Shown here in pieces: positions 5,996-60,312 of a stretch of DNA of 64,000 bases. Source of the stretch: a virus. Made by a program: the position numbers and the translations under genes. The notes beneath the pieces are model-generated. The model saw only the letters and a list, made by a program, of their open reading frames with translations, searched no databases and was not told the origin of the DNA. Position 1 is the first letter of the stretch, and each line of letters opens with the position of its first letter. The stretch lies in IMG/VR virus record IMGVR_UViG_3300047322_001237, positions 1-64,000 of that record; one strand, 5' to 3'.

Positions 5996-6047
5996 GACCG
6001 TCATAAGGCCCAAGCCCCCGCAAGGAGGCTTGGGCTCTTATGCCGTT
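5996..6047. terminator. Palindromic bidirectional terminator, conserved-arm family, copy 1
   Basis: Outer arms accgtcataa and ttatgccgtt flank an inner stem gcccaagcc / ggcttgggc. It separates the converging tail tube gene and the 145-aa secreted protein gene. A smaller hairpin with an A-run (5971-5991, ggctt-gaaac-agcc then seven A) lies just before it. See the repeat-family finding for the other copies. Confidence 0.8.
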
Positions 6048-6063
6048 AAATGGATTACTCTAA

Positions 6064-6501
6064 TCAGTTCCTTGTCGACTGGCGCCAATTCTCCACATGG
6101 AGCTGATCCATTGGAACGCCGGAAATCTGGCGCAAAACAAGCCAAGTAGCATTGTTGAGTCTGATGTTCCGGTTGCGAAAATCAACGTAAAAGGCGTCTA
6201 GACCGTCGACTAGCTGGTTTGCCGTAACGCCGGTCATGTACCTGCGGGTCATCTCGTCGTACGAATTCGACACCAGCGTTGCGACCGCGTCTGCAGCCTT
6301 ATCCTTGTCGATTGTGTACTTCCAGACGGAAAAACTCTCTCCGAGATTCATACCATCGAAGAATCCGAGGATGTAGTCGACATGTGAAACGTTGTTATGC
6401 GTGCGCCACCAATTCCCATCTCTCGCCTGGTCTGCGTGCGCAAGTTGAGCGGAAAACGCGAGCGCGAGTGCAGCTCCGAGGACTGACGTAATTTTTTTCA
6501 T
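6064..6501 (-). CDS. Secreted (periplasmic) small protein of unknown function
   Basis: A 145-residue protein with a textbook Sec signal peptide: MKK basic start, hydrophobic core VLGAALALAFSAQL, and AHA-D cleavage at about residue 23. The mature part begins DQARDGNWWRTHNNVSH and has the segment YILGFFDGMNLGES, resembling the G-x-x-x-G/A-x-x-D helix of small periplasmic proteins such as Rap1a/Tai-type immunity proteins, though I cannot confirm this. No lipobox, so it is predicted soluble in the periplasm. Exported phage proteins of this size often alter the envelope, for example in superinfection exclusion or lysis timing; that is inference. It is the last gene of a minus-strand run of small accessory genes. 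Confidence 0.7.
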   Translation of the reverse strand: MKKITSVLGAALALAFSAQLAHADQARDGNWWRTHNNVSHVDYILGFFDGMNLGESFSVWKYTIDKDKAADAVATLVSNSYDEMTRRYMTGVTANQLVDGLDAFYVDFRNRNIRLNNATWLVLRQISGVPMDQLHVENWRQSTRN

Positions 6502-6620
6502 TTTCGTTAGCGTTCTTTTCGGTAGGGAGCAGCTGCCGACGGTGTTTCTATCGGGCAGTATTGATTCTTCTTAAGAGAGCGGGTCTTGTCAGTTACCCAG
6601 GCCTCACCTGAGTCGACCAC

Positions 6621-6722
6621 TCCTTCTTGATTGGGGCAGACAAAGGAGATTCACCGAGGGTCGTTTGGCTCCAGGCGCAAACTACTTATAGACCATCGAT
6701 CGGGCGGCTTCTCCGGCCTTTA
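6621..6722 (-). pseudogene. Decayed duplicate of the 3' half of the gene at 7349-7573
   Basis: Read leftwards, this stretch encodes KAGEAARSMVYK, a stop, then FAPGAKRPSVN, against KAGEVARAMVYKQFAPAAKKPSVN in the intact gene about 700 bp away. The stop is TAG at 6682-6684 where the intact copy has CAG. Similarity continues past PQS and then fades. At the other end it stops exactly at a copy of the palindrome arm (cctttatgccgtt, 6717-6729). The piece has no start or ribosome site and is not expected to be translated. Confidence 0.8.
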
Positions 6723-6727
6723 TGCCG

Positions 6728-7135
6728 TTAGTTTGGCAGAGCGGGATTGGAGGGGCGGGGTTTCGGCGTCAGCATCGCGACGACGTGTCTGACGATCCAG
6801 ATCACCTCATCATCAGATTGGTGCGGCTTCAAGATACCTCCAGCTTGACCGCCCTCGGAGCCCTTGACGATGTACGCGTACTGGACACCACCGAACGGCA
6901 GGCATTTCATCCGCAGATCAACATCGAGGTCGTCATCCTTGCGCACCCACTGCATGGAGACCGAGCCGTCAACGTTCGGAGCGATCTCGCCGTTCAACAT
7001 ACTGGCGGGCAGACGCGACAAGAGTCCCTGTGCACGCTGGAGGGCTGGCTGGGTGACAGCCATTCCACGCTGCGTGTCCAGTTTCAGAAGCAGTGGGAGT
7101 TGGCCGGGCAAGGCCGGGATTATCGGGTTGTTCAT
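6728..7135 (-). CDS. Hypothetical protein (135 aa)
   Basis: Start taken at ATG 7135 (MNNPIIPALPG) because it follows the stop of the preceding gene at 7140 by 4 nt; a longer frame would overlap that gene heavily. The central part, RLPASMLNGEIAPNVDGSVSMQWVRK, looks like a beta-sheet domain with the pattern W/L-P...N...I.P..DGS...W seen in small bacterial hypothetical proteins. No membrane segment or signal peptide. It lies in a closely spaced run of small accessory genes and its stop codon lies in a palindrome half-arm. Function unknown. Confidence 0.6.
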   Translation of the reverse strand: MNNPIIPALPGQLPLLLKLDTQRGMAVTQPALQRAQGLLSRLPASMLNGEIAPNVDGSVSMQWVRKDDDLDVDLRMKCLPFGGVQYAYIVKGSEGGQAGGILKPHQSDDEVIWIVRHVVAMLTPKPRPSNPALPN

Positions 7136-7139
7136 GGCG

Positions 7140-7573: not shown

Positions 7574-7585
7574 TTTCAAATCTCC

Positions 7586-9163: not shown

Positions 9164-9697
9164 TTACGACTTGTGAAAGTCCCTCCGCGTGCTGGTGCCG
9201 TTTGAATTGGGGTTGTATCGATTGGAGTACGGACGCGCACCTTCCCGAGGCGATCGTTCGCTCCGATAGGGTCTATTGCCGTTGTCGCGCTTGTAAAACT
9301 CCGAACTGCGGATGTGTTGCGTGGATGGCACAGCCACTTCAATGGGAGAGCTGGTGGAGATCCGAATCTTCTTCAGCCCAGGCGAGGAAATCAGGCGGCC
9401 CTTGACGGTAGCTGCGCCTTGCTCGAACGCCTTCTGCACGGAACCCTTGCCAAGCAATACCGTGTACTTGCCTTCCTGCTTGAAGAAGGCGATTTCCCCG
9501 TATTGCAGCTCCGGTGCAGCAGGCGCGTAGCATACACCGAAATTCTGCACGTCGGCGCCTGTCGGATCGAGTGTGTTCAGATCTTCGGGTTTGACTTCGA
9601 TTACGGGAGCCTGACGCATCAGGCCAACCAGCGACTTCACGAGATACTCTTCGCCTTTGAATTGCAGGCGAATCTCATCGCGTTTTTCCATGTTCAT
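9164..9697 (-). CDS. Hypothetical protein with basic disordered tail (177 aa)
   Basis: Start is uncertain among ATG 9697 (MNMEKRDEIRLQF), ATG 9691 and a GTG at 9778; I use 9697 because sequence character becomes protein-like there. Residues 1-120 form a compact mixed domain with ELQYGEIAFFKQEGKYTVLLGKG. The last 45 residues are Arg/Asn/Ser/Pro-rich (for example KRDNGNRPYRSERSPRE), a typical nucleic-acid-binding disordered tail. No family recognised. It could be a DNA- or RNA-binding virion or early protein; inference only. Confidence 0.6.
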   Translation of the reverse strand: MNMEKRDEIRLQFKGEEYLVKSLVGLMRQAPVIEVKPEDLNTLDPTGADVQNFGVCYAPAAPELQYGEIAFFKQEGKYTVLLGKGSVQKAFEQGAATVKGRLISSPGLKKIRISTSSPIEVAVPSTQHIRSSEFYKRDNGNRPYRSERSPREGARPYSNRYNPNSNGTSTRRDFHKS

Positions 9698-9837: not shown

Positions 9838-9882
9838 GACGGCATAAGCGCCAGCCGGTTTCCCGGCTGGCGTATGCCAGTC
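9838..9882. terminator. Palindromic bidirectional terminator, conserved-arm family, copy 2
   Basis: gacggcataagc ... gtatgccagtc outer arms around an inner stem gccagccgg / ccggctggc. It lies immediately downstream of the 29-aa zinc-ribbon gene, between co-directional genes. This is unlike most copies, which sit between converging genes. Confidence 0.75.
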
Positions 9883-9884
9883 GA

Positions 9885-9985: not shown

Positions 9986-10744
9986 TTACCAGTTCAGGTA
10001 GGCAGGCTTGCTACCGTTGTCCGACGCCCATCCGAGCGAGGTGAACAGCTCCTGAACGTTCAGGCGAACGGATTCCTGAGCGATGCCCTGTGCGGACGCA
10101 CGGTGCGCGCCTTCCAGGTGGCGGCGGGAGAACATCGATTCGGCGATCTCCTCGAGGGCGGGCGACTTGAACTTGTTGGCGATCGCAATGCCCGGTTCGT
10201 TCACGTAGTCCCACGTCACGATGTTCTTCAGCACGCGGTGCGTCGTGCGGCCGACCTGATCGTCACGCGTGAAGGCCCGGATCGAGAAGCAGACGTTCTC
10301 GTTCTTGTTCTCGAGCGAGCGACGCAGCGCGTCACCCTTCGGGCCGCTCGGGCAAACTTTACCGACGATCGCGATGCACTTGCGACCCTGCGGATCACGG
10401 ATGCGATCGAAGTCCAGCGTGATCTCCCTGATGTGGTGGGAGACGTCGCCTTCGTAGATCGACAGGATGCGTTGAGCGTACGAATCGTAGCTCTGGCCCG
10501 GCACCATCTTGGGATGGCCGTATTCACCGCGCAACGCGCCGTTGGCCACGCGTCGCATGAGCTGGCTGGAGCTCGTGAAAAGCTCCTTGGCGGGCTCGTA
10601 CGGATAGAACTGGTCGGCGGAGTTGTACACGTCCAGTCCGCCCAGCACCACCTCGTAGTAGCCGTCTTCGTCCGGTCGGAGATCACCGGCCTTGTTCGTG
10701 CCGTTGAGCGCCGTGAAACCGAAACGGATGTAGTTGTTACCCAT
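9986..10744 (-). CDS. Putative prohead (capsid maturation) protease
   Basis: A 252-residue protein resembling the T4 gp21-type (U9/U35) prohead protease fold. Residues 63-78 read MRRVANGALRGEYGHP, matching the family G-E-x-x-H-P block with H77 as likely catalytic histidine. Residues 150-157, NVCFSIRA, match the V-x-x-S-S/I-R block with S154 as likely nucleophile. Between them lies ITLDFDRI...CIAIVGKVCPSGPKGDALRRSLE, the typical strand and helix linking them. The enzyme would cleave scaffold and capsid N-termini during head maturation. It is followed downstream by small genes rather than an obvious scaffold or capsid gene, which is unusual. Catalytic residues are inferred from motif position. 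Confidence 0.7.
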   Translation of the reverse strand: MGNNYIRFGFTALNGTNKAGDLRPDEDGYYEVVLGGLDVYNSADQFYPYEPAKELFTSSSQLMRRVANGALRGEYGHPKMVPGQSYDSYAQRILSIYEGDVSHHIREITLDFDRIRDPQGRKCIAIVGKVCPSGPKGDALRRSLENKNENVCFSIRAFTRDDQVGRTTHRVLKNIVTWDYVNEPGIAIANKFKSPALEEIAESMFSRRHLEGAHRASAQGIAQESVRLNVQELFTSLGWASDNGSKPAYLNW

Positions 10745-13242: not shown

Positions 13243-16200
13243 TTACGACCGGTAGAGTTCCACGGCCTTCTGGCCAATCACATCGAGCAAGGTCGTTGTG
13301 GTCGCGATGAGTTCCGGAGACGACACGATCCGGTCTGCAACAGACTTCGCGCCAAAGATCGCATCGACCTTCAGTCCGGATTCCGTTCTCAGCTCACGCT
13401 CCATCACCTGACCGAACACCGTTTTCAACTGGTTGCCGAACACGCCCTTGTCACCCACGCCAGCCGGGACGTCCGCAGTGATGTAGATCTGAATCGCTGC
13501 GGTGTCCAACTGAAGCGGAGTGCCTTCGACGCGGAAGCTTTCATCCACGCTGCCGGTGTAGCCCTTCTTGCCCACGGAGCGCGAACGCTTGATCATGGCC
13601 GCATCGGATGTGGCCGCGAGTTTCTGGAGCGAAGGCGACATGTCCTCCAGCTCCCCGTGGTAAAAGACCTCAATGCGCTCAACGATGCCCGCGGATTTCG
13701 CCTTGGGTGTTTGCTCGCTCAGCACACGCAGTGTGTCAAGAGACTCCTCGTCGAACAGACGGTTGCCCGCTGTCACGGCGTCCTCGATGACGCATAAAAT
13801 ATCCTCGGAGCCCAGAACGGCGCCTGGCTTTGTGAGCTTGTGGATCTCCTGATCGAAGTTGACGACGATGGTTCGCACCTTCGTCATCTGCGTGGTCAGT
13901 AGTTCCGAGACCTCTCTCGAGATCGCCGAAGAGTCTTCCAGCGTCACCATCGCTTCCATGAACACGGTCTTCACCGTGATCCCGGCCTTCCACACGACGC
14001 TTTCCGGATTCAGGACATCCGGCTCGAAGAAGCCGTCGTTGTAGGAGAGCAGGGTACCGGGTTTGAACGCTTGACCGGCCTTCATGTTGGTGTTGACCTG
14101 ATGCGGTACCACGAGACCTGCTGCATTGCCGTAGCGACGTCCCAGCTCAATGCCCTGGATCTCGCCGTCTTCGTACTGCACTTGCATGCCGTGCTCGTTG
14201 ACAGAAAGCACCTTGCCGCCTTTCTTCGCCGTGACTGCAAACAGGTCGCCCGCGCGATGAGCAATGACGCCCTCGTAACCCGTGCGAAGAGAGGCCTGCT
14301 TGTAACCACGACACGCGATGCCGTGACTCTGCTGAATGCCGATGAAGTTCACCCGCTTCGGATCGTCACGGTCGGCAGCCGGCGACAGCAGCGCTGACGT
14401 CGAGAGCAAAGCCGTCGCACCCGTTTTCTTCACGTCGTAGGGGCGGGAGACACCGCGCAACGAAGTGAACTGCGGATCCGCGCTGGTGTACGTGTTGATC
14501 GCCACGTCCGAGGAGTCGACGGTCGATTCCGAGATCGTCCCCATGTCGTTCTGGTGATAAGCACGGGTCGACTTCGTCATACTGCGCGAGCCTCGGCCAC
14601 CCACACCCGAGTACGTCACGGCTTCCATCTCTTTCAGGTTCTGGATCGGATTGATTTCCGACACCTGGATCTTTGCGGGATCCTGGGTGATGTTTTTCCA
14701 GACCTGGAACGGATGCAGGTCGATCGGCAGGCGCGACTTGCCAGCCCGGCCGTTGTGCACGCGAATCGAACGCACGATTTCCGAGTACACAGCACCCGCC
14801 ATCCGCTCGTAGCCCTTGATCCGCATGTAACGCGAATCGAGTTCGTCCGGATGGTGGTCCGTGAGCAGCATCTCGCAAGCCTTGAGCAACAGGCTCTGAT
14901 AATCCGTCGGCTCCTTCATGTCCATGAGCAACTCGCGCGTGATCGGATCGATGAAAAGCTGATACTGCAGATCGATCTCGCGCAGATAGCGCTGTGATGC
15001 GCCACCCGACTCCAGGACGTTCAGGTACACGCCACGCCGATCGAACTCGTGCACGTTGTACGTGCGCAGGCTCCGGTGATACTCATTGAAGCCGGCGAGC
15101 ACCATCGAGGCGAATGTCTTGTCGCGCGGGAACACCAGCGTCTCATCCGAGAACACCAGGCTGTATTCGTTCGGTTGAAGGTTGACGCGCTGTCCAGCCG
15201 GCACCCGGCGCGGCTCGACCTTGAGCATCTTCATCAGACGCTCTAGTCCCATTTCGTAGCCAAGCACCACGCCCAACGGAATTGTCCGGCCCAACACCTT
15301 CACTTCCGCGAAGTCGACCGGAGCCTTGGCCGGTTCCAGCTGAAGCATCTCCTCGATCGAAGGCAGCACCTGGGGCAAGCGCTTCTCGCCGCGGGTCGCT
15401 TCATACAGCGCGCCGTTGCGGTCCATCAACAGGAACGTGTTCGGCTTCTTGAGCGACTTGCCGCAGACTTCCATGCCGTGCTCAGCCATCAGCTTCAACG
15501 TGTCTTCGCCGTATAGTGCTACGCGCTTCGTGTGGTCGAAGTTCCATTCGAACCCGGCCAGCGTGAAGCCACGGAAGGACATCGCCAAGATGCTGTACAG
15601 ACGCGGACACGGGAACAGGTTGTCGAACACGTCTGCCATGTGCATGTTCGCGAGCAGGCTGTTGCCTTTCTCCAGACCGATGGCCCGAATGGAGTTACAC
15701 AGCCACGTGCCGTAGTCGTTAACGCGCTTCGGCGAACGGGAGACGAACACCTTGCCGTAGTAGCTGGTGAGTGCCACAGTCTCCGGGTCGATCTTGCGGA
15801 TCGGTAGGTCGCCGCGCTGCTTACGAACACGGTACTTCACGCCATTGCTGGTGAACGTGCCATCTTCAGCCAGCGTCGGCAGACGGAAGCGGAACGTCGA
15901 TTGCGCTCCATCGACGGGCGTAACACGAACTGTGTAGATCTTGTATTCGCCCATGACGTCATCCACGTCCTCGACCTCGTAGCCGGTGACGCAGAGACCA
16001 GCCTGCTGAAGGTTGAGCACCATGCTGGCGACATCCTTCTGCATGACCTTCTTGATGTAGTGCGAGTCGAAGACCATCAACGACGACTTGAGCATCGTCT
16101 TGTCCGGTACCGTCGCAACGTCGGGAAGTGCGGGCGATTCAGGAATCTGCACATCTTCCTGAGCGACCTGCGAGAAGTCACCCAGCGTCGACTTCCCGTC

Positions 16201-17601
16201 CGGAGCCACGATCTTCTTGTACGCCTGAGACAGTGCCTGATAGCGACGGTGTTCACCCGCGCTCAACATGCCCTGTTCCGCGAGGCGATCGCAGATCTTC
16301 ATCACAGCGCCTTCGGGACTGAGCGTCACGGGTGCTTCGACGGTCACTTCCTTGCGCGTTTCTTCGTCCGGATCGCTCAGATTCGCGATGTGCTCCAGCT
16401 GGTCCAGGTCCGCGTCGATCTGCTTCTCGAGCTCTGCGTCACGATGGATGTCAGTACCGCGCTCATCCGGTGCGTCTTCTTCGTGCTTGAGTGAGGCGAC
16501 CACGCGCATTGTCTTGCTGCGGTTCGCCAACTCTTCATCGTCGAGATCATCGTCCAGCTGCTTCGGTGCCTGGAAGTAGGTCGGAGCCTCGGTCGGTTGC
16601 TGTACCGTCTTGGTGATTTCGCCCGTGGTCGGGTTGACCGAGTCCACCACGTTGGTCGGTTCCTGCGGGGTCTCGCCCGATGCGGGTACTGCGCTGTCGC
16701 TCTCGGCCATGACTTCAGGCGCGGCTGCCGTACGGACTTCCATCAGCGACATGAGCATGCGCAGGAAGAAACGCTGCAGTCGAATGGGCGGGTAGCCGTG
16801 CTGGTTCGCTTCGGGGTTGACTTCCAGTTCGGTCGGCGTCGCAATCCGCCAGCCGTTGAGCGTGGCGAGGTTCACCACGAACCAGCGGCCGCTCTCTTCG
16901 AACAGGAGGTTGACGCGACCGATGTGCGCATCGCTCACGTGGGAGAGCATCGACGACTTGCGGTTCTCACCGAGCCACTTCCAGATTTCGAGAATCATCA
17001 GCGCTTCGTGCGAATTGAAACGCTTGATGAGACGCTGGTTGATGCCGCCGGCTTCGCCGACCTTCAGATCGGCCAGACACGGCAGGATCTTGGGCAGGGT
17101 GATCGGGATGAACTGATTCCGGTTGGAGCGCGCGGCGATGTCACCGACCTGGCTCCAGAGCGTCTCCGCGACGTTGTGCCACTGGTAATAGTTGGCGAAC
17201 AGCGATCGCGGGTAGCGATACATCCGCCACAGGAACGCGTAGTTCATCACGGCGAGCGTGTTGTCGTCCCGTGTGCCAGTCTCGAAATTCACGAGCTTCT
17301 TGTAGCGGCGATGCTTCTGAAACCACTGCGAGGACAGCAACGGCGTCGACGTCGGTATCAGACGCGGGTTGCCCTGATTCGCAGCCTGCTGGAAAACGTG
17401 AGAGACGACGATCGGTCGGGTGATTCCCCGGAACTCGATCTGGTTCGAATCCGGACCACTGTCGAGCGGGCCGCCGCCCATGAAGTGAAACAGGCTGCGC
17501 TTGGGCAGCGCCATTTGATCCATACCCGGCAGGGGCGGCTGGATCAGCTGTGCGGTGCGGCGCACGCCGTATCGTCGATAGAAGTATTCGTACAGGAACA
17601 T
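13243..17601 (-). CDS. Phage RNA polymerase beta subunit, N-terminal and core part (1,452 aa)
   Basis: The C-terminal half carries recognisable beta landmarks. Residues 983-1040 (INPIQNLKEMEAVTYSGVGG then RAYHQNDMGTISEST) parallel the bacterial Q-NPL...R..S.LGPGG...RD.H..HYG block. Residues about 1080-1120 (DDPKRVNFIGIQQSHGI, RTGYEGVIAHRAG) parallel the R..MG.NMQRQAVP / TG.E..VA.DSG block. Residues 1381-1390, GVGDKGVFGN, match the GDK...RHGNKGV lysine loop of the catalytic barrel. The chain ends about 60 residues later, where bacterial beta goes on into its C-terminal clamp-anchoring region; that region seems to be a separate gene at 34194-34880. An acidic, proline-rich linker at about 300-470 splits the N-terminal lobes. 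Ribosome site GGGGAT; 5 nt after the beta' gene, so co-transcribed. Confidence 0.85.
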   Translation of the reverse strand: MFLYEYFYRRYGVRRTAQLIQPPLPGMDQMALPKRSLFHFMGGGPLDSGPDSNQIEFRGITRPIVVSHVFQQAANQGNPRLIPTSTPLLSSQWFQKHRRYKKLVNFETGTRDDNTLAVMNYAFLWRMYRYPRSLFANYYQWHNVAETLWSQVGDIAARSNRNQFIPITLPKILPCLADLKVGEAGGINQRLIKRFNSHEALMILEIWKWLGENRKSSMLSHVSDAHIGRVNLLFEESGRWFVVNLATLNGWRIATPTELEVNPEANQHGYPPIRLQRFFLRMLMSLMEVRTAAAPEVMAESDSAVPASGETPQEPTNVVDSVNPTTGEITKTVQQPTEAPTYFQAPKQLDDDLDDEELANRSKTMRVVASLKHEEDAPDERGTDIHRDAELEKQIDADLDQLEHIANLSDPDEETRKEVTVEAPVTLSPEGAVMKICDRLAEQGMLSAGEHRRYQALSQAYKKIVAPDGKSTLGDFSQVAQEDVQIPESPALPDVATVPDKTMLKSSLMVFDSHYIKKVMQKDVASMVLNLQQAGLCVTGYEVEDVDDVMGEYKIYTVRVTPVDGAQSTFRFRLPTLAEDGTFTSNGVKYRVRKQRGDLPIRKIDPETVALTSYYGKVFVSRSPKRVNDYGTWLCNSIRAIGLEKGNSLLANMHMADVFDNLFPCPRLYSILAMSFRGFTLAGFEWNFDHTKRVALYGEDTLKLMAEHGMEVCGKSLKKPNTFLLMDRNGALYEATRGEKRLPQVLPSIEEMLQLEPAKAPVDFAEVKVLGRTIPLGVVLGYEMGLERLMKMLKVEPRRVPAGQRVNLQPNEYSLVFSDETLVFPRDKTFASMVLAGFNEYHRSLRTYNVHEFDRRGVYLNVLESGGASQRYLREIDLQYQLFIDPITRELLMDMKEPTDYQSLLLKACEMLLTDHHPDELDSRYMRIKGYERMAGAVYSEIVRSIRVHNGRAGKSRLPIDLHPFQVWKNITQDPAKIQVSEINPIQNLKEMEAVTYSGVGGRGSRSMTKSTRAYHQNDMGTISESTVDSSDVAINTYTSADPQFTSLRGVSRPYDVKKTGATALLSTSALLSPAADRDDPKRVNFIGIQQSHGIACRGYKQASLRTGYEGVIAHRAGDLFAVTAKKGGKVLSVNEHGMQVQYEDGEIQGIELGRRYGNAAGLVVPHQVNTNMKAGQAFKPGTLLSYNDGFFEPDVLNPESVVWKAGITVKTVFMEAMVTLEDSSAISREVSELLTTQMTKVRTIVVNFDQEIHKLTKPGAVLGSEDILCVIEDAVTAGNRLFDEESLDTLRVLSEQTPKAKSAGIVERIEVFYHGELEDMSPSLQKLAATSDAAMIKRSRSVGKKGYTGSVDESFRVEGTPLQLDTAAIQIYITADVPAGVGDKGVFGNQLKTVFGQVMERELRTESGLKVDAIFGAKSVADRIVSSPELIATTTTLLDVIGQKAVELYRS

Positions 17602-28644: not shown

Positions 28645-28652
28645 GCGACGTA

Positions 28653-38706: not shown

Positions 38707-38712
38707 TCGTCG

Positions 38713-46307: not shown

Positions 46308-48830
46308 ATGCGCTACACGGCACTGAAACTCACTGGCTATAAGCGGTTCAAGCTCAACCAGATTGAAACGTTCGAGATCCGTCCGACCGAGCTGATCCAG
46401 CTCATCCTCGGCACCAACGGCTCGGGCAAGTCCTCGCTGATCGAGGAACTCACGCCGTTGCCGGCGAACCCTGCCTACTTCACGAAGGAGGGCAGCAAAG
46501 AGATCCATATCGTCGATCGCGGGCATCAGTTCGTCTTGACGAGCACCTTTGCGTCGGGCAACAAGCACAGCTTCATGAAGGACGGTGAGGAGCAGAACCC
46601 GGGCGGGACGGGGGCCGTGCAAAAGGAATTGGTCAGGCAGGAGTTCGGGATCACGGGAGAAACCCATGATCTGGCGACTGGCGTGGAAAAGTTCACCAGC
46701 ATGGGTCCGGCTCGCCGCCGTGAATGGTTCACCCGGCTAGCGGAAACCAACTTCGACTATGCGATCGGTGTGTACAACAAGTTGCGGGAGGAATTCCGGA
46801 ACGTGTCGGGCGCACTGAAGCTGGACAAGAAGCAGCTCGTGATTGAGCAGGCGAAGATCATTTCGGAAGAGGAGCAGCAGCAGCTCATCAGGGACGTGAA
46901 GGATCTGCACGTCGAGCTGACCCGTCTGATCGAAATGCGCGCACCGATCGAGCGGCCGCTGTCGCAGGTCGATTCCGCACGGATGGCAACGGAAGCACAG
47001 CTCCGGTCGCTGAGTGAGCGCCTGCTGAATCTTCGCGTCGAGTCGCCCGCCCGCGCCTACCGGAACGAATGGTACGAGCTGGTTACGCCCGTGTTCAACT
47101 CGGTCGACGATGTGGATCGGCACATGGACCTGATCCGGCACCGAATTACCGCGCAGGAGGCTGTGCTCACGAAGAGTGTGACCGATCACGAGAAGTTGAA
47201 GGAGACGGTTGAGATTCTGAAGAAACGCGGCACTGAGGGGGTCAAGTCGGTTCAGCTCCGAATCCAGCAAGCACGCGACGCCCGCGACGCACTGTTGAAA
47301 GGTCGACAATTGAAATTGGAAGGCTTTGACCCGACCGCAGCGATGCAGTCGTTCGAGTCGATCCACGAGGCAATGTTCGACTTGCTCAACCGCCTTCCGG
47401 AGAACCAAGATGAACGGTTCAGCCGTGCCAAGTTAGATGAAACGCGCGCCACGCTGCTAACGTTCAAAGAGCAGCGGACAAAAAAGGGACAGGAGCTCGC
47501 TCACTTCCAAGCGAAGAAGCAGCACCTCGAACAGCACAAGGCAAATGGCGCGACAACGTGCCCCAAATGCCAGCACACGTTCACCCAAGGCGTGAGTCCG
47601 GAAGCACTCGATGTGCTCACCCGTCAGGTCGTCAGGAATCAGGCGGAGCTGGCCACGCTTGAAGCCTTGGTCGGGAAGACCGAGGAAACCATCGCGCAGA
47701 TTCAGTCCTACGGTGAGCTTTTCCGGGAGGTGCATCAGACGATCCGGGGCACGCCGGCACTGCGGCCGTTTTGGGATCACCTGCTGGAGACCGACTACCT
47801 GAAGACCGCACCTAAGGTTGCGGCCAACATGCTCGTTGGGGTACTTCGGGAAGATCTCGAGTTGGAGGTCAAGGCGAAGCGCCACGTCGACGACATTGAG
47901 GAACTAACTAAGCTTCTTGTGCAGTCGGAAGAGCTCGGTGATCAGAACCTGGCCGAGGTCTCCGTGAAGCTCGGCGAGTCCAGTTTGCAGATCGAGGCGT
48001 TGACCAAAACGCTTTCGGAAGCCCGACAGGATCTCAACGCGTTCGCCCTGTACCGGCGCCAGCTCATGGAGGCGATCGACCTGTCCCATCAGATCGAGGT
48101 TGCCCGAAGGAGCTTCCACGACCTCACCGAAATGCAGGTCGAGACGCTGCGCCGGATGACGGTCCAGCAATGCATCCAGCACACGCAAAGCACGCTCGCC
48201 CGCAAGGAAGAGATTCTGAACGCCCTCAACCAGCAAAAGGCAATCGTCGAAAGCCTCAACAAGACGATCGCTCGCCGGACGCTGGAAGAGGAGGCGCTGC
48301 GTGTGAGCGTTCGCGGACTGTCGCCCACGGACGGGCTGATTGCAGACGGACTGCTGGGGTCGATCAGAAGTTTTACCCACCAGATGAATCAGTTGATCCG
48401 CAAGATCTGGTCGTACCCGCTGGAAGTCTTGCCGTGCGGGATGTCGAGCGAACGCGGCGCGGAACTGGACTACAAGTTCCCGCTTCTCGTCGGTAATCGG
48501 GACAACATCGTTGCGGACGTGAGCCGTGGCAGCAGCGGCATGCAGGAAATTGTCGATTTGGCTTTCAAGGTCGTCGCCCTGAACCGCCTGCATCTCGACC
48601 ACGGTCCGTTGACGCTCGACGAGTTCGGAAAGACGCTCGACCTCGAACATCAGCACGCGGCCGTCATGGCCATCAAGACGCTGATGGACACGAAGCCTTT
48701 CACGCAGCTTTTCATGATCTCGCACTTCGAGGCCCACTACGGCGCCTTCACGAACGCGGAGGTCTGCGTGCTGGACGCCCGGAACATCGCGGTGCCGAAG
48801 GTCTACAACACACACGTCACCATGCATTAA
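46308..48830 (+). CDS. Rad50/SbcC-type recombination ATPase (840 aa)
   Basis: Walker A GTNGSGKSS (35-43) follows LIQLILGT at the N-terminus. Near the middle, TTCPKCQHTF (416-425) gives the zinc hook C418-x2-C421 that dimerises coiled coils. The C-terminal lobe has the ABC signature SRGSSGMQEI (about 738-747) and Walker B LTLDEFGK with D771-E772. Coiled coil lies on both sides of the hook. In phages this protein pairs with an Mre11/SbcD-type nuclease (T4 gp46/gp47) for end processing in recombination-dependent replication; the partner is not in this window. It is short for SbcC (about 1,000 aa) but longer than T4 gp46 (560). Confidence 0.93.
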   Translation: MRYTALKLTGYKRFKLNQIETFEIRPTELIQLILGTNGSGKSSLIEELTPLPANPAYFTKEGSKEIHIVDRGHQFVLTSTFASGNKHSFMKDGEEQNPGGTGAVQKELVRQEFGITGETHDLATGVEKFTSMGPARRREWFTRLAETNFDYAIGVYNKLREEFRNVSGALKLDKKQLVIEQAKIISEEEQQQLIRDVKDLHVELTRLIEMRAPIERPLSQVDSARMATEAQLRSLSERLLNLRVESPARAYRNEWYELVTPVFNSVDDVDRHMDLIRHRITAQEAVLTKSVTDHEKLKETVEILKKRGTEGVKSVQLRIQQARDARDALLKGRQLKLEGFDPTAAMQSFESIHEAMFDLLNRLPENQDERFSRAKLDETRATLLTFKEQRTKKGQELAHFQAKKQHLEQHKANGATTCPKCQHTFTQGVSPEALDVLTRQVVRNQAELATLEALVGKTEETIAQIQSYGELFREVHQTIRGTPALRPFWDHLLETDYLKTAPKVAANMLVGVLREDLELEVKAKRHVDDIEELTKLLVQSEELGDQNLAEVSVKLGESSLQIEALTKTLSEARQDLNAFALYRRQLMEAIDLSHQIEVARRSFHDLTEMQVETLRRMTVQQCIQHTQSTLARKEEILNALNQQKAIVESLNKTIARRTLEEEALRVSVRGLSPTDGLIADGLLGSIRSFTHQMNQLIRKIWSYPLEVLPCGMSSERGAELDYKFPLLVGNRDNIVADVSRGSSGMQEIVDLAFKVVALNRLHLDHGPLTLDEFGKTLDLEHQHAAVMAIKTLMDTKPFTQLFMISHFEAHYGAFTNAEVCVLDARNIAVPKVYNTHVTMH

Positions 48831-48844: not shown

Positions 48845-49759
48845 ATGGAAGTCAAAGACATCATCGACACGCTGACCGCGGTCAACCAGCATCTCACCAG
48901 CGCCCAGCGCGAGCTTTTGCAACTAACGCTCCGTCTCCAGAACGTCGCCGAAGATCAACTGAACCTAGCTGCGGTTGAGCAGACCGCTGGGAACCTGCAG
49001 GCGACTGCGCAGGCCGTGCAAGAGACGGCGCAGCGCTGGACGATGCCCTCGGCTGAGAATCCGGTCGTTCCGGGCGTCCACCGGATCCACGTCGGAGCCG
49101 ATTATCAGGCCCGGCGCTTCACGGGAGACGAAGTCAATCCCGCGGCGGCCGCGCCGTCGATGTCAGATGCGCTGCAAACCGCGAAGACCGTGCTGAAAGA
49201 TGCGCTCCGTGCCGCCGGTCAGTCGCAACTCGTGGACATGGTCGACCACGTGAGCGAAGCCGATCTGAAGCGCGTTCAGTCAGTGGCCGAGCAACCGACA
49301 CCGGCCGATGGCCCGACGCCGGTAACATCGACGGAGTCGCACGAGGCCAAGCGCGATCGCGAGTCGCTGGCAGCGTTCGCTGGCCCCGGCAGCATCTTCG
49401 TCACGCATCTCAACGCAGACACGGTGCAGGGTGGCCGCGGCCAGCTCGGGAAGGGCATCGCGGGTCTCAGCCGCTGGCAAGAGGACGCGCGCTGGATCGA
49501 CGAAACGCGTCTGAAGGGTTGGCCGTCCGGCTTCTATCAGAATCGGGATACGAAGGCGACGCAGCTGCTCATCAACACGGCACGCGCTGCCATCCTCGTC
49601 GATGGCTTGCCTAACCCGGGCGCTCAGGTTTTCGTGTTGCGATACGACATGAAGGCTGGCTTCGAACCCGCGGAGGTGCTCCCGCTGCTCGAGCGCACGC
49701 GTGTGCTTTCGTACATCCAGACGGCATTCAATAAGATGTTGCTGGAGGCTGCAGCGTAA
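48845..49759 (+). CDS. Unrecognised protein co-transcribed with the Rad50-like ATPase (304 aa)
   Basis: Starts 14 nt after the ATPase stop with AAAAGGAAACAAG upstream. An N-terminal coiled-coil-like helix (VNQHLTSAQRELLQLTLRLQ) is followed by a Pro/Thr linker and a C-terminal domain with SIFVTHLNADTVQGGRGQLG and AAILVDGLPNPGAQVFVLRY. It could work with the Rad50-like protein, but no nuclease motif is visible, so it is not an SbcD homologue. Confidence 0.65.
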   Translation: MEVKDIIDTLTAVNQHLTSAQRELLQLTLRLQNVAEDQLNLAAVEQTAGNLQATAQAVQETAQRWTMPSAENPVVPGVHRIHVGADYQARRFTGDEVNPAAAAPSMSDALQTAKTVLKDALRAAGQSQLVDMVDHVSEADLKRVQSVAEQPTPADGPTPVTSTESHEAKRDRESLAAFAGPGSIFVTHLNADTVQGGRGQLGKGIAGLSRWQEDARWIDETRLKGWPSGFYQNRDTKATQLLINTARAAILVDGLPNPGAQVFVLRYDMKAGFEPAEVLPLLERTRVLSYIQTAFNKMLLEAAA

Positions 49760-49765: not shown

Positions 49766-49817
49766 GACGTCATAGAAGCCAGAGAGGACGCAAAGTCCTC
49801 TCTGGCCTTTATGCCGT
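49766..49817. terminator. Palindromic bidirectional terminator, conserved-arm family, copy 7
   Basis: gacgtcatagaagccagag ... ctctggcctttatgccgtt with inner stem gccagagagga / tcctctctggc. It sits between converging genes at 49759 and 49833. Confidence 0.88.
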
Positions 49818-49832
49818 TCGCTTGCTACGGAG

Positions 49833-50438
49833 TCAGATCGGGGACAGAAGTTGATCCCTGAGCCGGCTGTATTCTCGATGAACGACCTGATACCTTGACT
49901 GAATCCCATCCAGCGTTCTATAGAGAGAACGCTTCGCCTGGCTTCGCTTTTCGTCATCAGCAGATGACTTTCCGGTTATTTTGGAAAGGTCATTGTGGGC
50001 TTTAAGGCCGCCCGGGTTCATTGCAAACCGATTGGGCGAGACACCCGGATCGTTGATGACATCGGGAAAACGGTCGGGGTCGTAGACGACCTCAAAGTAC
50101 AAAGCGATGGCTATTGTGAAGTTAATGAATTCTTCCCTTCGGGCTGGAGTCCGTAGGATTCCGAGCGCCTTTGCATGAAGATGCCTGGACAATGCGCTGT
50201 CGCGTTCAAGCTCTTCGAACAACGGGTGGTCGCTTGTGACCTCAACTGATCGATCGTCGAGAAGTCTTAGGTACCGGCCAAATCTTTCCATGTAGTTTTG
50301 ATGGACCGCCTCCAGGTCATTCATCACCGGAACCACAAAGTCCGAAAAGCTGTTGCGATTGACTTTCTCTCGCCGATCAATCAACTGGGCGAGTCGGTCA
50401 AGTACAGCAACGAGCGACAAAATGGTCTCAGCGATCAT
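49833..50438 (-). CDS. Unrecognised protein (201 aa)
   Basis: MIAETILSLVAVLDRLAQLI begins a helical, soluble protein with acidic and basic patches; a middle stretch reads EEFINFTIAIALYFEVVYD. No signal peptide or known motif. It is separated from the 417-aa gene by a 76-bp gap with small inverted repeats (tccgcc / ggaggcgagga). Function unknown. Confidence 0.6.
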   Translation of the reverse strand: MIAETILSLVAVLDRLAQLIDRREKVNRNSFSDFVVPVMNDLEAVHQNYMERFGRYLRLLDDRSVEVTSDHPLFEELERDSALSRHLHAKALGILRTPARREEFINFTIAIALYFEVVYDPDRFPDVINDPGVSPNRFAMNPGGLKAHNDLSKITGKSSADDEKRSQAKRSLYRTLDGIQSRYQVVHREYSRLRDQLLSPI

Positions 50439-51854: not shown

Positions 51855-54122
51855 ATGTCCACATCCACTCTTTCGTATCCGTTCGATCCGACGGGTTCGC
51901 TGGCATCGAACCTGATCAAGGGCGAGCAACAACAGCTGGTAGCTCAGAATTTTCGGGACCAGCATCTCATCATTCCGGCCGCCGCGCCGTTCTTCGCTGA
52001 CACCGTCCAGATCACGTATAAAGACACGTCGGGTCAGATCAGCACGCTTCACGAAGGCGTCGACTTTTACTTCACGCACTGGTTCATCTCCGCAAGCCGT
52101 GCTTGCGCGAAACGGGTGTATGGCTCGATCAGTTTCATCGACACCGCACTCGCCGGTATTGTATCCCTTCAATATCAGACGGTCGGTGGTGTCTGGACCC
52201 TGAGCGCGCAGCAGATCGCAACGCTGCTGGCGAACACGCTGGACAACGCACGCGTCACGTCGTGGGAAGAAATCAGCGGCACGCCTTATGCCTTCCCGCC
52301 CGAAGCGCATAGCTGGGACATCACCGATCTTGTCGGCATGACCGAAGTGGTCGATGCGCTTTCCGGCATCCAGACCGTTCTCCAGCAGACTGGCGGCACG
52401 GGTCTGGCCGCGCACATCGCGGACCACGGTAACCCGCACGTCGTGACCGCGACTCAAGTGGGTCTCGGCAAAGTCCAGAACTACGCGACAGCGGCGAACA
52501 GTGACGGGGTAGCGGGTACGTCGACCACCCTGTACATGACGCCAGCAACCACCGCTGCGGCAATCCAGTCGCAGGTGCTGGGTCCGATGAATTCGCACAT
52601 CGCGAACTACTCGAACCCCCACCACGTCACGGCTGCACAGGTGGGCTTGGGCAACGTTCAGAACTACGGCGTGGCCACACCTGCGGATGCTGCAGCTGGC
52701 GTCTCGACGTCGCTCTACATGACGCCTGCCACGACGATGGCTGCGATCAACAACTCGCTGGGCTCGTCACTCAACGCTCACTTGCTCGACTTCAACAACC
52801 CTCACGAAGTCAGCGCGGCACAGGTGGGTCTCGGCAACGTCCGCAACCTGTCGACGGCCACAACCGCCGATGCGATCGCTGGCACGAGCAACGATCTGTA
52901 CATGACGCCTGCCGCCACGGCCGCCGCCCTCAATGCGAGCGGGGCAATGGGTCTGATCACGGCGCACGAGGCGGATTTCACGAATCCGCACCACACGACC
53001 GCTGCTCAGGTCGGCGCTTATTCGAGTGCCCAGATCGATTCCATGTTGCTGGGCTATCTGACGACAACAGGCAAGGCCGCGGACACTTCGCTGTTCAACG
53101 GACTGACCCTGGCGCAAGTGACCTCGCAGATCCTGTCAGGCACGGCCAACAACGCGACCATGCTCGGCGGTATGACGCCCGCGCAGTTTCAGTCGTATGT
53201 GTCCGGCGGCACGGCGAACGACTCCGAAATGTTCGGTGGCATGTCGCCTGCCGACTGGGACACGTATATCGCGAACGCGACGGTGGCAAATGCGAATCTG
53301 GTCTATGGCCTCACGCAAGCGGCGCTCACCTCCGCAATCCTGTCTGGCACCGCCGCCAATGCGTTGGAACTCGGCGGTCAGAACGTCTCTCAGCTAACGG
53401 CCTCCATCCTCGCAGGCACGGCGGCGAATTCGACGCAGCTCAACGGGTTGACGCAGGCCCAGCTGACCTCGGCAATCCTTGCCGGAACGGCGGCGAATGC
53501 GACCGCTCTTGGCGGTCAGTCAGCATCGCAGCTGCAGGCAGCGACCATTGCGGCAAGCAACGCTCAGATGTGGACCGCGGGCACGGTCGCTGCACAAGAA
53601 TCGGTACCTTCGAACACGAGCGCGGCGGCGAACGTCTGGACGCCGATCGGCAAGCTGAATATGCCGGGCAGCGCGCAAACGCAGACGGTGTTTCCGGATG
53701 TTCAATGGCTCGTCGCCGGCGGCGATGCGACCAGCGATACCCAGAGCGGCGCCTGGTTCCTGCGAATCTCGGTGCGTGACACGACGCAGACCAACAACGT
53801 CGCGCTGCAGGCAATTAGCTTGAGTGGCATCAACGTGACCTCGGCTGTTTTTGGCTACACGATCGACAGCACGAACGCGAACGCACCGGTTCTGACGGTC
53901 TGGATGAAAACGCCGGGCCATACGAACCAGATCTCGGTGACTTCGCTCTCGGAAAACACCAGCCAGTTCCTCTCGACGATCGCGCAAGTCACGACGGAGC
54001 CGACCGGCATCGTCTACACGACGACAGACACGTTTGCCCTGGCTTCCGAGATGAGCAACATGCTCACGCAGTTGACCACTGCCTTCACCACGCTCGCCAA
54101 CGCGGTGAACGGTACCTCCTAA
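51855..54122 (+). CDS. Tail fibre 1, NPH-repeat type (755 aa)
   Basis: Residues 1-115 resemble the N-terminal domains of the three following fibres (YPFDPTGSLASNLI). Four repeat units of about 70-80 residues follow, each with HI.D..NPH.VTA.QVGLGNV and LYMTPATT. Then six or so 23-residue repeats of the type LNGLTQAQLTSAILAGTAAN form a shaft. A C-terminal globular domain (about 580-755) is unique, including VFPDVQWLVAGGDATSD. NPH.VT.AQ.G repeats are typical phage fibre repeats. It is the first of four tandem fibre genes. Confidence 0.85.
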   Translation: MSTSTLSYPFDPTGSLASNLIKGEQQQLVAQNFRDQHLIIPAAAPFFADTVQITYKDTSGQISTLHEGVDFYFTHWFISASRACAKRVYGSISFIDTALAGIVSLQYQTVGGVWTLSAQQIATLLANTLDNARVTSWEEISGTPYAFPPEAHSWDITDLVGMTEVVDALSGIQTVLQQTGGTGLAAHIADHGNPHVVTATQVGLGKVQNYATAANSDGVAGTSTTLYMTPATTAAAIQSQVLGPMNSHIANYSNPHHVTAAQVGLGNVQNYGVATPADAAAGVSTSLYMTPATTMAAINNSLGSSLNAHLLDFNNPHEVSAAQVGLGNVRNLSTATTADAIAGTSNDLYMTPAATAAALNASGAMGLITAHEADFTNPHHTTAAQVGAYSSAQIDSMLLGYLTTTGKAADTSLFNGLTLAQVTSQILSGTANNATMLGGMTPAQFQSYVSGGTANDSEMFGGMSPADWDTYIANATVANANLVYGLTQAALTSAILSGTAANALELGGQNVSQLTASILAGTAANSTQLNGLTQAQLTSAILAGTAANATALGGQSASQLQAATIAASNAQMWTAGTVAAQESVPSNTSAAANVWTPIGKLNMPGSAQTQTVFPDVQWLVAGGDATSDTQSGAWFLRISVRDTTQTNNVALQAISLSGINVTSAVFGYTIDSTNANAPVLTVWMKTPGHTNQISVTSLSENTSQFLSTIAQVTTEPTGIVYTTTDTFALASEMSNMLTQLTTAFTTLANAVNGTS

Positions 54123-57105: not shown

Positions 57106-59628
57106 ATGTCAGAAGTCTTGACTTTGCCGCTGGATCCCACGGCTAAGGCACCGACCAATCACATTACGTCGGAGAACCACAGTATCGGATCCGGACTGAT
57201 TCGTGCGTTCGCGCCGGCCTATGGCGGCTTCTACGAATCGAGCCTGAAGATAACTGATGTCGCGACGGGCCGGCCCGTCACTGCATCGCAGTACTTCACC
57301 ACCGGGCTGATGGACCTCGCAACGACGAAGTATGGCACGCCGAACAACACCAATGTCGTGTCGCTCGTCGTCGTGACCGATGCGAGCGTGTCCGGCAACC
57401 TCGTGATCGAGTACCAGGCCCTGGGTGCTGGGTTTGCTACGCCCCAGACAGTGCTTGCATCCGAAGTCGACACGTTCGAACCGGCGACGCGTCCGTCGAC
57501 GTGGCCGTCGGTGGTTGACCGCACGGCCGATGTGCCGCCATCGCAAGCAATGCATGATGAGGGGCAGGCGGGTCTCATCACATTCGAGTATGTCGTGCAT
57601 GCCATCGACCGCATTGCACAACTCGCGATCATGGGCGACCCGCTCGCGCAGTCGCGCGTTCGTGCGTACGCCGACGCGATGGAGAACGGCGAACTTCAGA
57701 TCGTCTCAGGTCAGAACACATCACTCGCTGCGCACATCGCGAACCACAGCAACCCGCACCAGGTGACGTCCGCGCAGCTCGGCGCGATGACGGAGGCGCA
57801 GCAGGACGCAGCTATTCTTGTTGAGACGCAGGCACGACAGGCAGGGGATGTGAATGCCACGCAGACGTTGACCAGCCACACCTCCAACCAGAATAACCCG
57901 CACAACGTCACGCTGACCCAGGTGGGGATGTACTCAGTATCGCAGGCGAATGGGAAGATCAGTGCTGCCCAAACGAGCGTCAACGCGACCATCAGCGCGA
58001 ACGCGGCCGCGATGACCGCGCACCTGAACGATACCAACAATCCTCACCAGGTGACGGTCACCCAGTTAGGCACGGAAAGCGTATCGGCGATCCAAGCAGC
58101 GATCTCGGCTGCGGCAGCCACGGTGTCGAGCAGTGCTAGCAGTGCAAGTTCAACGCTGAGCACGCACGTGTCCAACACGAACAACCCCCACGCCGTCACC
58201 CCGGCGCAATTGGGTACGTGGACGTCGGCTGCGTTGACGACGTTGATGAACACGCTTAACAGCCATATCGCCAACAAGAGCAATCCGCATAACGTGACGA
58301 TCGGACAGCTAGGAGGGATGACGCAGGCGCAGTACTCCGCGGCCATCACCGCTGCGTCGAACTGGATGGCGGGAATCTTCAACTCGAATTCGTCGAGCAT
58401 CAACAACCATATCGGGAACTACAACAACCCGCATGGCGTTAATGCGCAAGCCCTCGGCGCGGTTGGACCGTGGAATAACCTCGGTGGCGATCTGGCCAAC
58501 GCGCAGGCTCAGATCAACGCAAGTGGTCACCAGGTCACGGAAACGGGCACGCAGTACTACAACATCAACTACTCCGGTGCGATGGCTGCCAACTTTGGAC
58601 GCCAGTTGGAGATTTGCTATGCGATCACGGATTCGGCGTATTGGCGACCCACCGGCGGTGACACTACCGTAACAGGAAGCTTCCCCTGGTTCAGCGCGCC
58701 CGGCGGGGCGCAACTCCAGGGCTTCTTCCGGTCGGGCAACATCATCACGATCATTGTTCTGAATGGCAGCCTGGACGGGATGGTGTTCCACTCGTCGCTT
58801 GGCGAGAATCTGGCCCTGTCCAACGATCGGTCGTATACGTTCATGCAAACGGGGGCCGGACTCTACACGGCATACTCCGCCGTCTCGAACGTCGGTCAGA
58901 CCGGCTCGCCGCGCAGCTACGCAGTAATCATTCAGGGCTGGCCGAGCCGCGGTCAACCACCGCTGTACTACGTTAACAATGCTGCGCCGCCGCCGGACAA
59001 CTCAGGTGGTGGTGGTGGCGATGTGTCAGTCTGCTGCTTCACGGCAGGCAGTCTGGTGCTCATGGCGGATCAGAGCTGGAAGCCGATCGAAACCGTCCGC
59101 AAGGGCGATTGGGTCATGGGTGCGACGGGACCGGAAGAAGTTCAGCGTCTCCACGTCTCCCGCCTGGGCCATCGTCACCTGATGGGGTTCGCCGGCGAGC
59201 GGTTGCGTTGGAGCGAGGAGCATTCGTTCTGGGCTCGCAAGGACGGCCGTCAGTGGTGGTGGTCAGCCAATCCTGCCATGTGGCGAAAGGAAGTCGAGCT
59301 CGGCGTGGTCAAGGGATTGAAGGATCTTTACAGCCACTTCGATGGAGACGTTGATTTCGCCCATCTCGACGGTTTCGTCAGACGCAAAGTTGAAGTGATG
59401 CCGTCGACGCCGGACACGCTGGTGTATCTTCCGGTGACGAAGGGATCCCCGATCATTGTGGATGGTTACGTGGTCGGAGCCTCAGTCAACGAGTTCATGT
59501 ACGACTATGCGTCGCTCGATTGGCTCGAGCACGTGCGCAGTCACAGGAAGGCTGCTGTCGGTCTGGAAAAGAAGTCGCGGGTACGTCGCTGGAAGGACGG
59601 CCTCAAACGCCTGCTCTGGATGAAGTAA
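57106..59628 (+). CDS. Tail fibre 4 with C-terminal Hint (intein/hedgehog-type) domain (840 aa)
   Basis: ATG 57106 follows GGGAGGAAATACATC. Residues 1-110 are the shared fibre N-domain; six NPH repeats run to about residue 450. A unique globular part follows (about 450-620), then a Gly-rich linker (NSGGGGGDVSV). Residues 643-672, CCFTAGSLVLMADQSW and following KPIETVRKGDWVMG, are the hallmark Hint N-terminal block with C644 as splice Cys. LRWSEEHSFWARKDG holds H706 of block B. Block G is degenerate (VDGYVVGASVNEF) with no His-Asn, so only N-terminal cleavage is expected. The domain may cleave the fibre or attach it to something. The last 50 residues are basic (KKSRVRRWKDGLKRLLW). Confidence 0.88.
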   Translation: MSEVLTLPLDPTAKAPTNHITSENHSIGSGLIRAFAPAYGGFYESSLKITDVATGRPVTASQYFTTGLMDLATTKYGTPNNTNVVSLVVVTDASVSGNLVIEYQALGAGFATPQTVLASEVDTFEPATRPSTWPSVVDRTADVPPSQAMHDEGQAGLITFEYVVHAIDRIAQLAIMGDPLAQSRVRAYADAMENGELQIVSGQNTSLAAHIANHSNPHQVTSAQLGAMTEAQQDAAILVETQARQAGDVNATQTLTSHTSNQNNPHNVTLTQVGMYSVSQANGKISAAQTSVNATISANAAAMTAHLNDTNNPHQVTVTQLGTESVSAIQAAISAAAATVSSSASSASSTLSTHVSNTNNPHAVTPAQLGTWTSAALTTLMNTLNSHIANKSNPHNVTIGQLGGMTQAQYSAAITAASNWMAGIFNSNSSSINNHIGNYNNPHGVNAQALGAVGPWNNLGGDLANAQAQINASGHQVTETGTQYYNINYSGAMAANFGRQLEICYAITDSAYWRPTGGDTTVTGSFPWFSAPGGAQLQGFFRSGNIITIIVLNGSLDGMVFHSSLGENLALSNDRSYTFMQTGAGLYTAYSAVSNVGQTGSPRSYAVIIQGWPSRGQPPLYYVNNAAPPPDNSGGGGGDVSVCCFTAGSLVLMADQSWKPIETVRKGDWVMGATGPEEVQRLHVSRLGHRHLMGFAGERLRWSEEHSFWARKDGRQWWWSANPAMWRKEVELGVVKGLKDLYSHFDGDVDFAHLDGFVRRKVEVMPSTPDTLVYLPVTKGSPIIVDGYVVGASVNEFMYDYASLDWLEHVRSHRKAAVGLEKKSRVRRWKDGLKRLLWMK

Positions 59629-59650
59629 GAGGGTGGTGAGCTACACGCGT

Positions 59651-59688
59651 ACGGCCGGGCGGGAAACCGCTCCGGCTTTATGCCGTGA
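59651..59688. terminator. Terminator hairpin with one conserved arm (family copy 8, partial)
   Basis: tacggccgggcgg-gaaa-ccgctccggctttatgccgt: the stem GCCGG..CGG / CCG..CCGGC is followed by the family right arm ctttatgccgt. It lies between co-directional genes after the last fibre. Confidence 0.75.
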
Positions 59689-59745
59689 TTTCTATGAGGG
59701 AAATACACAACGAACCCTCGTAACGCTCATCCATAAGGCCCTAGC
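59689..59745 (+). promoter_or_regulatory. Candidate promoter segment before the 161-aa gene
   Basis: CTATGAGGGA at 59693-59702 matches CTATGAGGGG before the giant gene (19261). It is followed by ccctcgtaacgctcat (59713-59728), similar to a segment before the gene at 32332. Function is inferred only from recurrence. Confidence 0.35.
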
Positions 59746-60231
59746 ATGCCGACTCCCCTCTGCGACTACAGCAAGAAGTCCCAGGACATCATTCGGGACC
59801 TCATCTACGCGAGCAACGGTTTCATGTTGCCTGCGACCGGCGTGCTGTTTGGCAATCCAACTAGCACCACCCCGCTCGTTGCCGACGCCTATCAGCGCGA
59901 CACATTCGTCCGGTTGTCGATGGACCCGAACGTGTTTCCTCGTCGCTATCGCGGCTCCCGCACCTTCCTTTACAAGCGAATCGATCTGAGCACCTTGAAG
60001 GCGTCTGCATCAACGCCAACACCGATCCAGGTCATCAGCTTGCCGACGGACACGTACACCTTGCTCAACCAGATCAACGCCTACTATGGCCTGCAACTGG
60101 CACAGGCAGACGTGCAGAACATCACCTACGGATCTGTCAACGGTGCTGTCCTGGCGGCCGACGTTACCTCTCTTGCCTTTCAGGGATACCTCACACTGAA
60201 CCTTCAGTTGGCCACCCCTGTTCAGGCATAG
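59746..60231 (+). CDS. Small virion-like protein after the fibres (161 aa)
   Basis: MPTPLCDYSKKSQDIIRDLI begins it; the C-terminal part has LLNQINAYYGLQLAQADVQN, where asparagine, isoleucine and a D-V pattern resemble small phage structural proteins with an N...LL.AD... motif. No motif for catalysis or membrane. It follows the fibre genes and ends at a palindromic terminator. Possibly a baseplate or fibre-associated protein or chaperone. Confidence 0.6.
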   Translation: MPTPLCDYSKKSQDIIRDLIYASNGFMLPATGVLFGNPTSTTPLVADAYQRDTFVRLSMDPNVFPRRYRGSRTFLYKRIDLSTLKASASTPTPIQVISLPTDTYTLLNQINAYYGLQLAQADVQNITYGSVNGAVLAADVTSLAFQGYLTLNLQLATPVQA

Positions 60232-60261
60232 CTAGTCCGCCTTCGGGGATAGGGGCGACTA

Positions 60262-60312
60262 GACGTCATAAAAGCCAGAGTGGACCCAGTCCACTCTGGC
60301 CTTATGTCCGTC
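60262..60312. terminator. Palindromic bidirectional terminator, conserved-arm family, copy 9
   Basis: gacgtcataaaagccagagt ... actctggccttatgtccgtc with inner stem agccagagtgga / tccactctggc. It lies between converging genes at 60231 and 60324. Confidence 0.9.

Follow-up and report, generated by a model that had tools for sequence, protein, structure and literature searches.

At the late promoters of phage phiKZ, the phage polymerase nvRNAP requires the bases T(-3)ATG(+1) (PMC4666361; PMC7598289), and nothing beyond TATG is conserved in the published late promoters (PMC4666361). The enzyme recognizes the motif on the non-template strand by means of a pocket in its core beta-like subunit GP123, and not through the sigma-like subunit; in the published transcribing complex, this pocket is incomplete (PMC12809450). 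Termination by the split, sigma-embedded polymerases of the phiKZ type is not discussed in the nvRNAP papers and jumbo-phage reviews that we searched, and terminators of the kind described below are not mentioned there. The novelty of the TATG tail is provisional, because this search did not extend to the transcriptome studies Ceyssens 2014 and Putzeys 2024.

Here, we describe a family of hairpin elements located at gene ends of a phage related to phiKZ. We consider it quite probable that these elements are intrinsic-type terminators of the phage nvRNAP, composed of a GC hairpin and, in place of the U-tract, a sequence-specific TATG tail, which we propose to be caught by GP123.

The phage and its RNA polymerase genes

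The window, i.e. the whole stretch of DNA analysed, comprises 64,000 nucleotides (positions 1-64,000) of the virus record IMGVR_UViG_3300047322_001237, which is 278,988 bases (279 kb) long and has a GC content of 59%. Virion RNA polymerase beta-type genes are found in the window at 13243-17601 and 17607-19232, while a GP123 homologue (73553-75163, minus strand) and a chimallin homologue (248546-250405, minus strand) are encoded in the same genome. Virion and non-virion multisubunit RNA polymerases together with chimallin are the gene criteria for Chimalliviridae. All of these are represented, and, judged by its genes, the window is part of a phiKZ-related, chimallin-encoding giant phage.

Two large genes of the window (51855-54122 and 57106-59628) have virion/tail-fibre modules in common (phrog_2163 and others), and resemble duplicated, mosaic tail-fibre-type genes. 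The genome is rich in long palindromes, and gene 46308-48830 encodes the SbcC-like subunit (phrog_77) of an endonuclease specific for palindromes.

Hairpin elements in the window

Gene gaps in the window were defined with the ORF list and the calls of a simple gene finder. A previous, sequence-only reading of the window had described a family of palindromic terminators with nearly invariant outer arms and variable cores. The sequences are present at all the coordinates that it listed, and its six full copies do lie in gaps between converging genes. All six are predicted to be two-sided terminators. The first (5996-6047, between genes 4987-5961(+) and 6064-6501(-)) has one hairpin common to both directions, with CTTATGCCGTT as the plus-strand tail and CTTATGACGGTC as the minus-strand tail. 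At 28652-28693, between 26581-28644(+) and 28697-30271(-), the hairpin GCCCGGG-ATGA-CCCGGGC is flanked by the tails TTATGCCGTT (-) and TTATGCTGTC (+). The element at 38654-38707, between 37832-38650(+) and 38713-39156(-), is made up of the hairpin GAGCCAGAGGGG..CCCTCTCTGGCTT and the tails CTATGACGTT (+) and TTATGCCGCT (-), and that at 45219-45264, between 43258-45216(+) and 45264-46238(-), of the hairpin GCCCAGGGG..CCCCTGGGC and the tails CTTATGCCGTC (-) and TTTATGTCGC (+). The last two are located at 49766-49818, between 48845-49759(+) and 49833-50438(-) (hairpin GCCAGAGAGGAC..GTCCTCTCTGGC; tails TTTATGCCGTT (+) and CTATGACGTC (-)), and at 60262-60312, between 59746-60231(+) and 60324-61301(-) (hairpin GCCAGAGTGGAC..GTCCACTCTGGC; tails TTTATGACGTC (-) and CTTATGTCCGTC (+)).

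Three further predicted terminators were also correctly placed by that reading. One, on the minus strand at 9838-9882, occupies a tandem gap 3' of gene 9986-10744(-) and ahead of gene 9164-9697(-); its hairpin CGCCAGCCGG..CCGGCTGGCG is followed by the minus-strand tail CTTATGCCGTC, and the opposite arm, TATGCCAGTC, is weak. The other two are one-sided and on the plus strand: 32851-32913, in a seventh convergent gap (32838/32916), has a long imperfect hairpin and the tail TTTTATGCCGGTCG, and 59651-59688, in the tandem gap between 57106-59628(+) and 59746-60231(+), has a GC hairpin and the tail TTTATGCCGTG. The lone plus-strand arm at 6717-6729 (CCTTTATGCCGTT), which had been included in the family, lacks both a hairpin (dG -7.5) and an upstream gene on its strand; it is probably a chance match, and is not counted as an element.

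At other gene 3' ends of the window, there are hairpins with ordinary U-rich tails and without TATG, at 8535 (-), 13243 (-), 26442 (+) and 30343 (-). Because plain U-tract hairpins are present in the same genome, the TATG tail is not the sole type of terminator predicted there. The U-tract hairpins perhaps belong to a separate class of terminators that works with a different polymerase, such as the virion enzyme or that of the host; alternatively, they may be weaker terminators used by the same polymerase.

A directional 3' tail

The symmetrical pattern GACGKCATAA-N-TTATGYCGTC, with which the sequence-only reading would have searched for further copies, has no exact match in the genome, but 25 sites were found with a relaxed directional pattern and 16 elements with a relaxed two-sided pattern. 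In the window, the directional pattern YTTATGNCGT has 8 matches vs 0.58 expected, a number reached in none of 100 shuffles; genome-wide (278,988 bases), it has 25 matches vs 2 for the reversed control pattern. A hairpin read in the same direction adjoins 22-23 of these 25 sites, with energies of about -11 to -26 kcal/mol (null mean -8.9; 5.5% of the null at or below -15). Most of the hairpin sites are preceded by a same-strand stop codon about 35-140 nt upstream, the sites at 69818 and 254931 being without a called same-strand gene just upstream. Two sites, 6719 and 118071, are clearly without a hairpin, and both are also without a same-strand gene upstream; the latter match (118071-118080 (+) of the virus record) is probably due to chance.

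All 16 two-sided elements have a hairpin core, although their number alone is not significant genome-wide (16 vs 11 for the reversed control). When the hairpin sites of YTTATGNCGT and the 16 two-sided elements are considered together, the genome contains about 30 distinct hairpin elements. In many copies, such as those at 97115, 126219, 175580, 218836, 248432, 254931 and 270905 of the virus record, the opposite arm is missing altogether.

The near-invariance attributed to the outer arms therefore needs to be qualified: the motif is recurrent and non-random, but the arms, taken together, do vary (one side has TATGCCG, the other TATGACG or TATGTCC) and need not base-pair. In the two-sided copies, the two tails differ from each other at the variable base N, and the region from tail to stem is often unpaired; for these reasons, arm pairing is, in our reading, not the conserved feature. 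The arm is best described as a directional 3' tail, i.e. a GC hairpin followed by YTTATGNCGTY, and the palindromic appearance as a by-product of two opposed tails placed on one hairpin at converging genes, tandem ends usually having a single tail.

A one-sided 3' tail and stems that differ from copy to copy also speak against the packaging signal or recombination-copied element that the sequence-only reading had considered. Dispersed palindromes ending in CGTC bear a superficial resemblance to the CGTC-tagged class of REP elements (PMC3733652). However, most copies have unrelated stems, and the sites are linked to the 3' ends of genes and reappear in distant phages at convergent junctions, so that a mobile or repeat element, or a recombination or packaging signal, appears extremely improbable. 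A Y1 transposase (RAYT-type, PF01797) had no match in the genome, and a search of the elements against Rfam gave no match; on these grounds, and on that of the varying stems, a REP/RAYT palindrome, which would combine a conserved stem and a GTAG/CGTC tag with a Y1-type transposase, was rejected.

Just 3' of the chimallin homologue, at 248432-248441 (-) of the virus record, the terminator has a hybrid tail, consisting of TTTATGCCGTA and then about ten Ts. Chimallin is an early gene in phiKZ; if its homologue is early here as well, this hybrid tail might serve both phage polymerases.

Gene ends of related phages

YTTATGNCGT is not enriched in phiKZ (9 matches vs 9 for the control), because phiKZ has the looser TATGYYGT. 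With the whole-genome pattern flat in phiKZ, a comparison of the tails at gene ends was therefore required, and the gene ends of IMG/VR relatives (large beta subunit 45-94% identical), of the Burkholderia phages FLC9 and SURPRISE13 and of phiKZ were examined without presupposing the motif. A TATG-based tail is present 3' of the hairpin in most convergent gaps of FLC9, SURPRISE13 and phiKZ, and also at convergent junctions of the IMG/VR relatives; the phiKZ gp174/175 element, for example, reads GCATAA-GCCCTCCC-loop-GGGAGGGC-ATTATGTC. The expectation that copies should occur in the remainder of the genome, and the same arms at convergent junctions of related phages, was borne out on both counts.

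The survey was extended to 32 phages, in which the tails 3' of strong hairpins at gene 3' ends were tabulated. TATG occurs in about 33-75% of the tails in 17 of them (per-phage binomial p from 0.016, with few hairpins, to 3e-15), namely phiKZ, PhiPA3, 201phi2-1, RVTF4, Noxifer, Goslar, OBP, pEt-SU, Desertfox, FLC9, SURPRISE13, Moabite, four IMG/VR relatives and the present phage. The genomes with the tail range in GC content from 37% (phiKZ) to 59% (present phage). YongMS32, pAEv1810, AerD9 and N1M2 are intermediate, while few or no TATG tails, and mostly U-rich ones, were found in SPN3US-type phages, CR5, PhiEaH1, Centimanus, EL, Aphrodite1, PDCC-1, pVp-JHP1101, AR9 and phiR1-37. In the convergent gaps of 11 TATG-poor phages, among them AR9, 8/85 tails have TATG and 50/85 have TTTT, whereas TTTT is less common than TATG within the TATG-tail phages; it should be noted that the pools were sorted by the same tail statistic, so that the contrast between pools partly restates the sorting, while the contrast between gap types does not.

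As to gap type, the 17 TATG-tail phages pooled have hairpin and TATG together on 99/127 convergent, 46/131 tandem-sense and 3/20 divergent strand-hairpins. These figures bear on the possibility that the tails are promoters, in which case TATG would be a late nvRNAP start, antisense in convergent gaps or re-initiating into the next gene in tandem ones, and the hairpin would be incidental or a boundary. Late promoters are indeed known to carry TATG, the G being position +1 (PMC4666361; PMC7598289), and at many tandem sites the next gene begins 10-142 nt downstream, so that these sites may have a dual stop/restart role. Nevertheless, convergent gaps, in which there is no gene ahead in the direction of the tail, have the combination most often, and it is rare in the divergent gaps, which must contain promoters; moreover, the tails keep YCGTY, while no such extension is conserved in the published promoters. 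We consider promoters quite unlikely for these reasons, and the outward promoter role put forward as a weaker alternative by the sequence-only reading loses ground on the same divergent-gap count.

Tail consensus and promoter motif

The 147 tails give the consensus TTATG-Y-C-G-T-Y. TATG begins 1-3 nt from the GC stem in 109/147 tails, and G is nearly absent at both positions after TATG (3/147 each). The tail core is, base for base, the TATG of the phiKZ late-promoter motif; this overlap, already pointed out in the sequence-only reading, is real and is the key point. The conserved NCGT/YCGTY that follows is not part of the promoter motif, and the location, enriched in convergent gaps, is not that of late promoters, upstream of genes or operons. 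In the divergent gaps of the TATG-tail phages, TATG is the most over-represented 4-mer (105 vs 68.9 expected, rank 1/256), as opposed to rank 40 in those of the other phages.

As in an intrinsic terminator, a stable GC-rich hairpin lies just past the 3' ends of genes, but the U-tract (about 7-8 U-rich positions) to be expected directly 3' of the stem is absent, its place being taken by the tail. It could be argued that these are ordinary intrinsic terminators for any RNA polymerase, with TTATG as a poor U-tract and the remainder due to drift or to bidirectional symmetry, as one to three Ts do follow the hairpin and bidirectional terminators are common at convergent genes. This appears very unlikely, considering that TATGNCGT is kept in one-sided copies without a pairing partner, in genomes of 37-59% GC, that TTTT is the less common tail in the same phages, and that G is nearly excluded at both positions after TATG.

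GP123 and the proposed mechanism

In the GP123 of the present phage, the aligned pocket residues S144, F151, H331, S334 and Q466 are kept, while H185 is replaced by Y and Y406 by F. At the position of Y406, which stacks on the first two bases, nearly all the TATG-tail phages have Y or F; ten phages, TATG-poor except Moabite, have W or H. The mean fraction of TATG tails is 0.48 with Y/F406 vs 0.12 with W/H406, with Moabite (W406, 10/27 TATG tails) and AerD9, pAEv1810 and YongMS32 (Y/F406, few TATG tails) as exceptions. The covariation of residue 406 with tail type is no more than suggestive: the correlation ranks 20 among 475 columns, comes from two substitution events in the tree, and is subject to an alignment that is uncertain at 20-30% identity. 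Both comparative tests, i.e. TATG in divergent gaps and, weakly, residue 406, fit a shared reader of the start and stop motif. For the W/H406 phages, mostly of the U-tract type, a late promoter motif different from TATG is predicted.

A signal for RNA processing or 3' protection, at which read-through transcripts would be cut or trimmed at the tail while the hairpin shields the 3' end, was also considered. A conserved single-stranded tail 3' of a hairpin at gene ends would look identical, and a processed 3'-UTR RNA is known in phiKZ (PMC8545117). Still, TATG-tail and U-tract phages differ in the tail that they have at sites of this kind, which is what alternative terminators would lead one to expect, and the tail core is the polymerase's own start motif, with tail and start motif covarying in their presence between phages; we therefore regard processing as unlikely.

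In the preferred reading, that of nvRNAP terminators, a directional unit consists of a GC-rich RNA hairpin and, within about 1-3 nt after it, the tail T-TATG-N-C-G-T-Y. The hairpin would form in the RNA, as its sequence strongly suggests. The nvRNAP would then pause, its late-promoter pocket in GP123 catching the TATG exposed on the non-template strand of the bubble, a step modelled on the promoter structure; capture during elongation would require rotation of the beta-lobe, because the pocket is incomplete in the transcribing complex. This sequence-specific pause would stand in for the U-tract and leave time for the hairpin to release the RNA, presumably a few bases past the stem, as in intrinsic termination. 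RNA ends would thus form at these hairpins, and nvRNAP rather than another polymerase would make them. Of the earlier proposal, a terminator with a sequence-specific signal outside the stem, probably read by the phage polymerase, is supported; the palindrome would not be recognized as such, the signal being a one-sided 3' tail.

A broader proposition is that a single GP123 pocket of phiKZ-type polymerases reads non-template TATG for starting and, after a hairpin, for stopping, with a switch to U-tracts in lineages with a changed pocket. We advance this only tentatively, as somewhat less likely true than false. If true, the promoter motif of a multisubunit RNA polymerase would double as the tail of its terminators; starting and stopping may share a single recognition site. 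A tail equal to the start motif makes for a directly testable model; with it, the ends of transcripts could be annotated in such phages, and TATG recognition could be studied in a second context. It may also bear on how a four-base motif suffices as a promoter, as some genomic TATGs would be stop signals.

Comparison with known systems

Like bacterial intrinsic (Rho-independent) terminators, the elements have a GC hairpin at gene 3' ends and are bidirectional at convergent junctions; unlike them, they have TTATGYCGTY in place of the U-tract, with TATG 1-3 nt past the stem. With the phiKZ late promoter, they have the whole TATG core in common, and they occur in phages that have a beta-like subunit of the GP123 type, but they lie 3' of hairpins at gene 3' ends and carry the extra conserved YCGTY. 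The uracil-DNA jumbo phages AR9 and phiR1-37 also have hairpins at gene ends and multisubunit RNA polymerases of their own, whereas their tails are U-rich and without TATG (TATG in 3/28 tails of AR9 and 1/19 of phiR1-37); moreover, the AR9 polymerase uses a different promoter, AACA-6N-UA/G, which is read on the template strand. Finally, bacterial RNA polymerase responds to promoter-like pause elements, such as sigma-dependent -10-like pauses and the core recognition element. There, as proposed here, a promoter-recognition site is re-used in elongation for pausing; the pause proposed here differs in being part of a terminator, and in acting through the beta-like core subunit that is the main reader of the promoter.
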